Shown piece by piece: positions 15,883-41,170 of a stretch of 64,000 nt of DNA. The notes under the pieces were generated by a model. That model ran no database searches, was not told the origin of the DNA, and worked only from the letters and a program-made list of their open reading frames with translations. Numbering within the stretch: the stretch's first letter is position 1; each line of letters begins with the position of its first letter. Origin of the DNA: Ruminococcaceae bacterium Marseille-P2935 (GTDB lineage Bacteria; Bacillota; Clostridia; Oscillospirales; Ruminococcaceae); NCBI GenBank assembly GCA_900104565.1, contig LT629952.1, positions 991,604 through 1,055,603 on the forward strand, given 5' to 3'. A program made the position numbers and the translations under genes.

Positions 15883-15904
15883 GTTAATGAAATATGAACA
15901 TGTG

Positions 15905-15971
15905 CCAATATAATCTGGGTGATAAGGTCCCTAAGTTTCTACCGAACGACCGTAAATTGTTCGACTATTGG
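15905..15971 (+). ncRNA. Guanine-class purine riboswitch aptamer
   Basis: P1 is CCAATA (15905-15910) with TATTGG (15966-15971). The conserved purine-aptamer core is present: TAATC...GATAAGG, AAGTTTCTACC and GACTATTGG. The specificity base is C (GACTAT rather than GATTAT), which predicts guanine/hypoxanthine rather than adenine. The 3' P1 strand ATTGG can instead pair with CCAAT (16040-16044) in the terminator, giving an antiterminator when purine is absent. It therefore fits an OFF switch for the permease that follows. Confidence 0.95.
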
Positions 15972-16025
15972 AGTACTTGCCCAGTATTTGTGCAGGTATA
16001 TCCTGTTGTTCCTACAAATTCTACG

Positions 16026-37521: not shown

Positions 37522-39087
37522 TTATAAAAAAAGGTATTGCGTTGCAATTTTTTCTAAAAACATTTGGTCATGCTCGACAAAAACCATGGTGGGGCAAGCT
37601 TTTAGTATTACCTCTTCAATTTGACTGCGGGAAAGAACATCTATATAATTTAGCGGCTCATCCCATATAAATAGCTGTGCAGGCTTGCAGAGGCTTGCAG
37701 CCAGAAGTACCTTTTTCTTCTGCCCCCCGCTGTAGTCCTCCATACTTTTTTCAAACTGTACCCGTGAAAAATCCAGCTTTCGCAAAATAGATTTGAACAA
37801 GCTTTCGTCTAGTTTATTGGCTTGGCAAAAGTCTGTCAGACCGCCTTTTAAAAAAGAGGTGTCCTGCGCCAGGTAGGAAATTTCTAATTTTCCCAGAATC
37901 AGGTTTCCATTATACCTAATATTTTCGCCCGCTAACAGCCGCAGCAAAGTTGATTTACCGCATCCATTACGCCCTATTACCGCCAGCCGTTCCCCTTCCT
38001 TAACCGTAAAGCTGACCGGTTCAAACAAAGGTTGGTTTCCTATAAAAGCGCTTAAATTCACCGCCTCAACGACCTTCTTTTTGGTGTATGGCAGCACATG
38101 CATTTTTAGAGGCGGGTTTTCTTCCACATTCTTTAAAAGCCCCAATTTTTCCTCCGCCGCTTTATTCTGGCGTGCTTCAATCGATTTTGCACGCTTCATC
38201 ATTTTAGCTGCTTTATGACCGACAAAGCCTTTATCGGCCGCACCAGTTTTTGATTTTTCTGTTTTGTCCGACCAGTTTTCGGCCCGTTTGGCGGCCTGTC
38301 GCAGGCGGACAATATCTTTTTTCAGCCGCTCATTCTGTTCTATCTCCATTTGGTCCTGTCTGGTTTTATTCACAAGCCAGCTGGAATAGTTGCCCCGCTG
38401 CACCTCGATGTTCCGGCGGTTAATACTTAAAATATGGTCCACCGATTCATCCAAAAATTTTCGGTCGTGTGAAACCAGGATAAACCCCTTTTTCCCGCTT
38501 AAATAGTTTGCCACTACCTGCCTGCCTTGCTGGTCCAGGTGGTTGGTTGGCTCATCAATCAGCAAAAAACGGTTCTTTTTTAAAAAAAGTGCCGCAAGCA
38601 TCAGTTTTACCTGCTCCCCGCCAGAAAGGCTGTTCCAGGACCGTTCCAGAGTATCCGGCGTTACTTTTAACTTTGCACTTTCCACTCGTATCCAGTCTTC
38701 CATTTCGTAGCCATCATGAGCAAGGTATGTTTCTAACACCTCGCCATACTCCCGCAAAGCGTTTTCTCCTTTGCTGTTAAGAGCTTGTTCCATCCGCTGT
38801 TCCCATATGCTGTAGGGTGCAATCATATCTTTAACCGTCTGCAGAGTGTTTTTCTTTTCTGCCGGGGCTTCAAACGGAAAGTATTCAAAAGCAGCCGCAG
38901 CTGTAATGGTCCCGCTATAAGGGTATTTCCCTTGCAGCAGCCTTAAAAAAGTGGTTTTCCCCCGTCCGTTGCGGCCAATCAACCCCAGCCTCCAGTCTGT
39001 ATCAATTTGAAAAGAAACCGATTCAAAAATTGGTTCAAAGCTGCTTTCGTAGGAAAAGGAAAGATTTTGAATATCAATCAGGGACAT
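37522..39087 (-). CDS. ABC-F ATPase, Lsa-like ribosomal protection protein
   Basis: 521 residues from ATG 39087 with AAGGAGG nine bases upstream. Two ATPase domains without membrane segments: Walker A GRNGRGKTTFL and GRNGCGKSTLL, signatures LSGGEQVK and YSGGQKKK, and a charged inter-domain linker (about 235-310). The C-terminal end PTMVFVEHDQMFLEKIAT resembles the Lsa family, which displaces lincosamides, streptogramin A and pleuromutilins from the ribosome. Resistance is inferred, not proven. A consensus promoter, leader ORF and terminator upstream (39154-39363) strongly support antibiotic-inducible control. Confidence 0.9.
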   Translation of the reverse strand: MSLIDIQNLSFSYESSFEPIFESVSFQIDTDWRLGLIGRNGRGKTTFLRLLQGKYPYSGTITAAAAFEYFPFEAPAEKKNTLQTVKDMIAPYSIWEQRMEQALNSKGENALREYGEVLETYLAHDGYEMEDWIRVESAKLKVTPDTLERSWNSLSGGEQVKLMLAALFLKKNRFLLIDEPTNHLDQQGRQVVANYLSGKKGFILVSHDRKFLDESVDHILSINRRNIEVQRGNYSSWLVNKTRQDQMEIEQNERLKKDIVRLRQAAKRAENWSDKTEKSKTGAADKGFVGHKAAKMMKRAKSIEARQNKAAEEKLGLLKNVEENPPLKMHVLPYTKKKVVEAVNLSAFIGNQPLFEPVSFTVKEGERLAVIGRNGCGKSTLLRLLAGENIRYNGNLILGKLEISYLAQDTSFLKGGLTDFCQANKLDESLFKSILRKLDFSRVQFEKSMEDYSGGQKKKVLLAASLCKPAQLFIWDEPLNYIDVLSRSQIEEVILKACPTMVFVEHDQMFLEKIATQYLFL

Positions 39088-39153
39088 CTGGTGCAACCTC
39101 CTTAAGGCGCGGCGCTGTTTATGTCCCCAGGCAATTTATTCCCTGCAAAAGTA

Positions 39154-39411: not shown

Positions 39412-40347
39412 TTAACGGAACAGACCCTTTTTCTTTAAAATCAGACCCGCAACAGCAGTAATGACAGCTGCCAATGTAATGGGAAACCAGCCGTTATCAA
39501 GCGGCAGATAGCTGACATTCATTCCGTAGTAGCTAAATACAATCGTCGGAATAGCCATACAAATGGTCAAAGAGGTAAGTACCTTCATTACAATGTTCAG
39601 GTTGTTGGAAATAACCGAAGCGAAGGCATCCATTGTACCGGAAAGAATACTGGAATAGATATTACACATTTCAATTGCCTGCTTAATTTCGATCAGTACA
39701 TCCTCCAGCATATCCTGGTCATCTTCGTACAGCTTGATAATACGGCCACGGAGGATTTTTTCCAACGTTATTTCGTTGGATTTTAAAGAAGTTGAAAAAT
39801 AAACAAGGGATTTTTCCAGCCCCAGCAGCTGGATCAGTTCTTTATTCTTCATAGATTTATGCAGCTGCTGCTCAGTCATGGAAGAAATTTTGTCAATTTG
39901 TTTGAGGTACTGCAGGTACCGCATGGCTACCCTTAATAATAACAGCAGCAAAAAACGGGTTTTCAGGTGAGTGGGTACATTCTTAACCAGACCATCCGCC
40001 AATTCGCTGATAACAGGATTAGCCCGCACACTAATAGTAATAATATGTTTATCGGTTAAAATAATACCGATTGGCATAGTGGAATAGATGATGGTTTTTT
40101 CATCTTCCTGTTTTTCTGCAGTTGGAACGTCCACAATTACCAGTGTCTGGCCATTGTCCTCCGTTTCAATATGAGAAGATTCCTCTTCATCCAGCGCTGA
40201 GCGGACAAAATCCAGCTCAATTCCCACCGTACCGGTTAAAAATTCCACCTCTTCTTCGGTAGGGCTTACTGCACAAACCCAGCAGTTATCTTCCAGCTCC
40301 TCCAGCTTTGTCAGCCGGCCATTTATTGTTTTATAAAAATTAATCAT
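39412..40347 (-). CDS. corA: CorA-family magnesium/divalent cation transporter
   Basis: 311 residues. CorA forms a pentameric Mg2+ (or Co2+/Ni2+/Zn2+) channel. A long soluble alpha/beta and helical N-terminal part precedes two C-terminal membrane helices (about 250-272 and 285-305), with the signature YGMN in the loop between (VFSYYGMNVSYLP). ATG has AAAGGGG seven bases upstream; this site can be masked by a hairpin with CCCCT of the preceding leader ORF. The leader 40363-40437 ends 15 bp before the gene. Confidence 0.95.
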   Translation of the reverse strand: MINFYKTINGRLTKLEELEDNCWVCAVSPTEEEVEFLTGTVGIELDFVRSALDEEESSHIETEDNGQTLVIVDVPTAEKQEDEKTIIYSTMPIGIILTDKHIITISVRANPVISELADGLVKNVPTHLKTRFLLLLLLRVAMRYLQYLKQIDKISSMTEQQLHKSMKNKELIQLLGLEKSLVYFSTSLKSNEITLEKILRGRIIKLYEDDQDMLEDVLIEIKQAIEMCNIYSSILSGTMDAFASVISNNLNIVMKVLTSLTICMAIPTIVFSYYGMNVSYLPLDNGWFPITLAAVITAVAGLILKKKGLFR

Positions 40348-40362
40348 GCATTTTCCCCTTTC

Positions 40363-40437
40363 TCAGGGGCGCACCTGCATGGCTCCCCTGACTAGAATAA
40401 GTTGAATTAAGTAAGTACTTCCAGGGTCAGGGTTCAC
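40363..40437 (-). CDS. Leader peptide MNPDP... upstream of corA (24 residues)
   Basis: GTG 40437 has a strong GGAGGTGG five bases upstream and ends at TGA 40363. The peptide starts MNPDPGSTYLIQLILV. An acidic/proline start like this (compare Met-Glu-Pro-Asp-Pro of MgtL) is known to destabilise ribosomes when Mg2+ is low. Three exclusive helices are visible: 40386-40392 with 40426-40432; 40385-40390 with 40364-40369; 40365-40369 with 40355-40359, the last covering the corA ribosome site. A Mg2+-sensing translational switch is inferred. Confidence 0.7.
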   Translation of the reverse strand: MNPDPGSTYLIQLILVRGAMQVRP

Positions 40438-40591
40438 TGTTTCCACCTCCAAATGCGTTTTGCATCTAAAATTTTTAGAATACTCCATAAGATGATACAA
40501 CCGTTTGTTTTTGACCGGTTACCCGCCTTGTGCCAAAAGGGCCACTAGGGGAACACTTCACTTTGGTTGTTTGGATTATAACTACCTCAAA

Positions 40592-40775
40592 TATTATACC
40601 ATGAACAGAAGTGTGAATGGTATAATTGGCCATTGCCGTATGGCAGGCCGTAGAAATACGTATAATAAGCGCTTTGCGGTTATTATACCATAAACAGAAG
40701 TGTGAATGGCTATTGGGCGCTTGTCGGCCTGGCCATGAAAGTATAATAACTGCCTAGCAGTTATTATACCATAAA
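40592..40775. repeat. Three-copy interspersed palindromic repeat
   Basis: TATTATACCATRAA recurs at 40592, 40681 and 40762; the first two copies continue identically through ACAGAAGTGTGAATGG. Copies two and three are each preceded by a hairpin whose arms start GTATAATAA (40660-40688 and 40741-40769, the latter with perfect 13-bp arms). Unit spacing is about 81-89 bp. It looks like a small non-coding repeat family. Confidence 0.75.
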
Positions 40776-41170
40776 ACGGTAAAAATTCAACAGAACCTTT
40801 CGATTTCGCGTTAAATCGGGAACTATTCACCTTAATCGCATGATAAATGCAAAAATTACAAGTATTTTAGCGAATACGGCTCAATACCAAATAATATCCA
40901 TCTTTTTCATCCATTATTCTGCCCGAATATCTCTAGTATATCAACGGCATTTTTCGGAATAGTAACATGGAAAAGCTTTTTTTCAGTTACAATGTGGTAG
41001 GCTGGCATCGAAAAATAATAGCTACTGTACTATACGATTGCCTGCTTTTTTGCCACAACAGCTAAACTTTGATTTAAATTTAAGTTTTTTAAGCTGTACA
41101 GTATCTGTATTACAGAAAAAAACTGTCGTCTTAGAAGGCGGCAACACCTTGTTTTGACAGGAGGCAAACT
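40776..41170. other. Gene-free interval before the 175-residue ORF
   Basis: A+T-rich and without genes. It must hold the promoter of the gene at 41171, but I cannot choose one with confidence; a CTGTACAG palindrome lies at about 41095-41102. Confidence 0.4.

Follow-up and report, generated by a model that had tools for sequence, protein, structure and literature searches.

A candidate family of Asp-Pro leader peptides upstream of corA and other Mg2+ transporter genes in Bacillota

Within the 64,000-nucleotide stretch of DNA that we analyzed (the window), a gene on the minus strand (39412-40347) encodes a 311-aa protein with a GMN motif (YGMN). The protein matches TIGR00383 with an E-value of 1.8e-27 and 96.6 bits, which is under the curated equivalog cut-off of 200.75 bits; judged by this family profile and the GMN motif, the product is a CorA-type transporter. 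The gene is preceded by a short upstream open reading frame (uORF; 40363-40437, minus strand), whose stop lies 15 nt before the corA ATG (40347). The uORF starts with GTG, stops with TGA and encodes a 24-aa leader peptide, MNPDPGSTYLIQLILVRGAMQVRP, which is a member of the M-x-x-D-P family described below (codons: GTG AAC CCT GAC CCT GGA AGT ACT TAC TTA ATT CAA CTT ATT CTA GTC AGG GGA GCC ATG CAG GTG CGC CCC TGA). Its Shine-Dalgarno (SD) sequence, GGAGGTGG, lies at 40443-40450 on the same strand. An earlier reading made from the letters alone (the sequence-only reading) had described a 24-codon ORF with a strong ribosome site that ends 15 bp before corA, and we find all of these elements on the minus strand. 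It had also given the peptide's start as MNPDP; the peptide is as claimed, while the GTG start codon was left unstated.

Directly downstream of corA is a gene for an ABC-F ATPase of the Lsa/ribosomal-protection type (37522-39096). We considered a corA-ABC-F operon, with a link resembling that of EttA, and ruled it out: the protein is of the Lsa type, and relatives do not share this arrangement; at 80 of their loci, the 3 kb around corA contain no ABC-F gene. The adjacency is therefore incidental. Upstream of the leader, a repeat of about 190 bp (40590-40790) contains internal inverted repeats and TATAAT boxes, as well as a promoter-like TTGAAT-16-TATAAT (40790-40763, minus strand); it has 48 BLAST matches in the same genome, some of them in tandem about 180 bp apart. 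An Rfam scan of the window places no family over the leader, and its sole match is a distant purine riboswitch (RF00167, 75 bits, 15886-15987). The M-box (RF00380) has no match in the leader or anywhere in the genome. No intrinsic terminator was seen in the leader, and folding points to masking of the ribosome binding site (RBS) instead.

Four regions of the leader, all on the minus strand, can pair in competing ways. Region 1 (CCCTGAC, 40426-40432) covers uORF codons 2-4, including Pro3-Asp4. Region 2 (GTCAGGGG, 40385-40392) can pair with region 1 or with region 3 (CCCCTG, 40364-40369). Region 3 overlaps the uORF stop and can alternatively pair with region 4, the corA SD (AGGGG, 40355-40359). 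The helices are 1:2 (CCCTGAC/GTCAGGG, 40432-40426/40392-40386), 2:3 (CAGGGG/CCCCTG, 40390-40385/40369-40364) and 3:4 (CCCCU/AGGGG, 40369-40365/40359-40355), the last of which contains the corA SD. Three competing helices, the last masking the corA ribosome site, had been proposed, and each could be located. An additional helix, absent from the sequence-only reading, pairs CAUGCA (40378-40373) with UGCAUG (40350-40345, minus strand); the latter includes the corA start codon, which this helix is predicted to conceal.

For the free leader, folding predicts helices 1:2 and 3:4 together, with 3:4 burying region 4 and itself enclosed by the CAUGCA/UGCAUG helix. The minimum free energy is -32.4 kcal/mol (z = -2.3), and 7 of 200 shuffled sequences were equally stable. 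To represent a ribosome, we used constrained folding in which a 30-nt footprint blocks pairing. With the footprint on codons 1-6, the predicted structure moves to 2:3 and the accessibility of the corA SD rises from 0.17 to about 0.33-0.37. Accessibility is unchanged, at 0.17, with the footprint on codons 9-18. Once the footprint has reached codon 21 or beyond, the SD is left largely unpaired, but it would then lie beneath or beside the ribosome itself.

For comparison, upstream regions were taken from 110 corA loci and about 85 further loci from the class, and were clustered to 166 non-redundant leaders. An SD-led M-x-x-D-P uORF occurs in 91 of these 166, as against a mean of 0.5 and a maximum of 2 in dinucleotide-shuffled leaders; the second-commonest dipeptide at positions 4-5 occurs only 7 times. 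We rely on this shuffle-controlled count instead of the information content of D4 and P5 in the selected set, which is circular and constitutes no proof. The motif GAYCC follows an SD-led start at a distance of 9 nt in 91 clusters and at any other distance in at most 17; most of the latter probably reflect alternative start codons of a single uORF. The sequence-only reading had named a lack of conservation of the ORF and its codons in relatives as grounds for its rejection; the conservation is in fact strong. It does not extend to the whole of the N-x-PDP motif that had been put forward, as Asp4-Pro5 is kept while Asn2 is present in 19 of the 91 clusters and Pro3 in 39. By these counts, the invariant core is Asp4-Pro5, not the entire NPDP.

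The core is retained across synonymous codons (Asp GAC/GAT, 77/14; Pro CCT/CCG/CCC/CCA, 60/18/7/6), and the start codon may be GTG, ATG or TTG. In the home order the peptides begin MNPDP, MSPDP, MKPDP, MTADP, MSGDP and similar; in other orders of the class they take the form Met-Asp-x-Asp-Pro, e.g., MDADP, MDCDP and MDTDP. By eye, near forms that lack D-P (MSGDS, MSSDS, MPDAA) can be recognized at some corA loci. Many relatives of corA, chiefly outside the home order, have no such uORF, and one of 20 corA loci without a DP uORF has an M-box.

We then considered whether the predicted switching is a property of the family, using 60 leaders of the SD-sequestration type, in which the uORF starts 75-160 nt before corA. 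In these, the corA ribosome site is predicted to be buried; its SD has a mean predicted accessibility of 0.23 in the free leader, compared with 0.40 when a ribosome sits on codon 4 and 0.21 when it sits on codon 12. With a ribosome at codon 4, accessibility goes up in 30 of the 60 and down in 3 (Wilcoxon p of about 1e-7, which is optimistic since the sequences are related). Scrambling codons 2-7 raises accessibility to 0.31, while scrambling codons 9-14 leaves it at 0.23, i.e., without unmasking. The full three-way switch, from 1:2 plus 3:4 to 2:3 when region 1 is covered, is predicted in 24 of the 60 leaders; shuffling the stretch from codon 9 to the SD gives an expectation of about 1.0. Roughly one leader in two lacks the full switch, and the identity of the helices, as modelled, differs between lineages. 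At the wobble positions of codons 3 and 5, T-A, C-G and G-C types occur among the predicted pairs, but these pairs derive from energy-based folding and are canonical by construction, so the comparison with shuffles constitutes the evidence. We used shuffling and scrambling rather than covariation in alignment columns because the leaders diverge too fast for a clean alignment. Taken with the folding of the window leader, these statistics reproduce in prediction the earlier proposal that a ribosome on codons 3-5 would block region 1, allow 2:3 to form and thereby free corA.

Other leaders are organized differently. The uORF stop lies at most 35 nt from corA in 40 of the 91 clusters and more than 35 nt from it in another 40, and the uORF overlaps the corA start in 11. 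In the overlapping type, codons 5-6 (CCTTTA) are predicted to pair directly with the corA SD (TAAAGG), and in two leaders (L011 and L100) this pair co-varies to CCCTTAT/ATAAGGG. With a ribosome modelled on codon 4, the SD becomes more accessible in 13 of 14 such leaders, and by at least 0.25 in half. A third type has terminator-like hairpins between the uORF and corA (a crude scan gives 12 of 91, some of which may be false). When leaders of this type from the Flavonifractor group were folded, the terminators were present, and a ribosome at codon 4 clearly altered them only in some. According to these models, a ribosome on Asp-Pro would turn corA on in at least two ways while the Asp-Pro itself is kept. 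Because at least two architectures share Asp-Pro, the conserved sensor would be the peptide or its codons, and not one RNA fold.

We also searched for the uORF independently of the downstream gene, using the pattern SD, start codon and x-x-D-P, with the reversed pattern as control. Among 394 genomes of the home order, there were 37 matches in 35 genomes and 4 for the control. Of 30 loci inspected, 20 are upstream of corA, and the remainder are mostly within unrelated coding frames. The MDxDP pattern yielded 27 matches in 391 genomes of the class, with 17 before corA and 2 before MgtE-type genes. With a looser pattern, whose control matches are frequent, we inspected 30 loci from 398 genomes of the phylum: 10 are before corA (6 of these 10 being divergent CorA) and 6 are before genes that Pfam assigns to MgtE or PRC-MgtE_N-CBS. 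Since the uORF precedes corA, divergent corA, mgtE and MgtE-like genes, the factor they have in common is Mg2+ transport. In one instance, uORFs of the form MDCDP...LFAVPF before corA (L228-L232, L253) and MDGDP...SLFAVPI before a PRC-MgtE_N-CBS gene (L233) have a similar C-terminal stretch.

When mgtE genes were chosen irrespective of their leaders, a strict D-P uORF was found in 7 of 88, mostly of M-[D/E]-x-D-P-G form; by count there is no clear excess of D-P in these leaders (the dipeptide DS occurs 8 times). A few mgtE genes have an M-box instead of the D-P uORF. Other acidic or proline-containing uORF starts recur among the 88, e.g., MESVPW about 100 nt upstream of mgtE in three genomes (L330, L332, L357), and MDSDSS, MDADSS and MEVDSVP at further mgtE genes. 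MESVPW and its kin may form a second Mg2+ leader-peptide family.

Several known systems resemble the window leader in part. MgtQ, in the Salmonella mgtC-mgtB intergenic region, has Asp2 and Glu5 and releases the mgtB RBS via 1:2, 2:3 and 3:4 stems (PMC8092293). It is likewise a short uORF with early acidic codons, where early ribosomes favour 2:3 and free the RBS of an Mg2+ transporter gene. However, it has 8 codons, is intergenic within an operon upstream of a P-type ATPase gene, and has been described only in Salmonella and listed relatives. E. coli MgtL carries EPDP, at which ribosomes drop off at low Mg2+ so that mgtA is induced; a toeprint is seen at Pro3, and EttA modulates the process (PMC11282234). 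The likeness here is in the acidic-Pro sequence directly after Met, where low-Mg2+ translation trouble raises expression of the MgtA transporter in the case of MgtL, whereas MgtL's output is Rho-dependent termination in place of RBS masking, it has two acidic residues, and its gene encodes a P-type ATPase. The MDxDP forms outside the home order are close to MgtL, whose destabilizing motif is EPDP. CorL precedes corA itself and is Mg2+-dependent, with uORF translation inverse to corA expression (PMC11552253, PMC6429828); it differs in being Rho-based, with a single proline and few acidic residues, and the corA motif is reported from gamma-proteobacteria only. The M-box (ykoK) is a cis-regulator of Mg2+ transport genes in Bacillota, but it is a ligand-binding RNA and has no uORF.

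By its sequence and predicted folds, then, the window leader combines an MgtQ-like architecture with an MgtL-like peptide. Like the MgtL and MgtQ leaders, it carries a short, SD-led uORF ahead of an Mg2+ transporter gene, and has a conserved acidic residue and proline within the first five codons (Asp4-Pro5, or MDxDP in other orders). The repeated acidic residues of those systems, D/E-x(0,1)-D/E, are present in the MDxDP and MExDP members but not in the window peptide, whose first residues include just one Asp. Formal membership in the MgtL/MgtQ type is limited accordingly, as well as by the fold switch being a prediction. The destabilizing motifs tested in E. coli have repeated acidic residues, with DPEE the minimum for EttA dependence (PMC11282234), so that the many family members with one Asp, including that of the window, fit less well. 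Neither Rfam nor the open-access literature that we searched describes a Gram-positive counterpart. The earlier suggestion that such a uORF is unusual on a Gram-positive corA needs correcting: the uORF is common across the phylum and is found before mgtE as well.

We consider it probable that the leader controls corA in cis through a leader-peptide switch of the kind known from MgtL and MgtQ. With its strong SD, the uORF would be loaded with ribosomes, for which its first codons, M-x-x-Asp-Pro, may be difficult. Under ample Mg2+, ribosomes would clear these codons, and region 1 would re-pair with region 2, or region 2 would be covered; region 3 would then take the corA SD, turning corA off. 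When Mg2+ is scarce, pausing or drop-off at Asp-Pro and reloading would concentrate occupancy on codons 1-6, block region 1 and let 2:3 form, leaving the corA SD and start codon free. It counts against this scheme that drop-off by itself would restore 1:2, so that corA would stay off, unless ribosomes also reload or pause. The counts given above establish, at the level of sequence, the uORF family, its Asp-Pro constraint and its tie to genes of two unrelated Mg2+ transporter families; the switching by ribosome position is predicted by folding. We infer that the uORF is translated in vivo, with pausing or drop-off. By analogy with MgtL and MgtQ, and from the identity of the downstream genes, the signal is presumably Mg2+, with low Mg2+ presumably turning corA on.

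The M-box, an amino-acid attenuator and plain coupling were all considered and ranked low. That the uORF merely brings terminating ribosomes to corA, with its Asp-Pro codons serving RNA pairing, would suit the 40 clusters in which the stop is close and the 11 in which the frames overlap, and the Asp-Pro codons do fall within a pairing region. It is an improbable account, as in as many clusters the stop is distant, and Asp-Pro stays constant while helices, platforms and wobble bases vary. Sensing of charged Pro-tRNA or Asp-tRNA is suggested by the classic attenuator layout of a leader peptide with alternative hairpins, and Salmonella MgtP responds to Pro-tRNA (PMC8092293). But the first few codons of the uORF include no more than one or two for Pro, the third residue is usually not proline, the remainder of the peptide is variable and the genes downstream are Mg2+ transporter genes; we regard attenuation as highly improbable.

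A different kind of alternative accepts that the conserved uORF governs corA by ribosome position and changes the input, which could be Co2+, Ni2+, Mn2+, EF-P or ABC-F status, or the general elongation rate. CorA-family proteins can transport other ions. A single Asp-Pro is weaker than the known destabilizing motifs, and MgtL in E. coli is modulated by EttA (PMC11282234). We nevertheless think another input rather unlikely, given that Mg2+ is what links the CorA, MgtE and PRC-MgtE_N-CBS genes preceded by the uORF, and that distant members have two acidic residues, as in MgtL.

These leader peptides are best read as a family in Bacillota that resembles MgtL and MgtQ. We lean, with some reservation, towards a broader proposal: that M-[x/D/E]-x-Asp-Pro leader peptides, found across the phylum before two unrelated classes of transporter gene (corA, and mgtE with its relatives), are the Bacillota's own, previously undescribed ribosome-based Mg2+ sensor, which arose independently of enterobacterial MgtL, with a single Asp-Pro being sufficient and with at least three outputs (a three-way RBS switch, an RBS masked by the uORF start and, probably, terminators). 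In the open literature, we found ribosome-based Mg2+ sensing by an acidic or proline-containing nascent peptide in enteric bacteria only (mgtL, mgtQ, corL). If a conserved counterpart in Clostridia and their relatives is true, such sensing would be a general bacterial strategy. Such a counterpart would also provide more than 100 naturally occurring sequences to define the nascent residues that ribosomes find hard to pass, and would account for how Mg2+ controls corA in lineages where this gene has no M-box.
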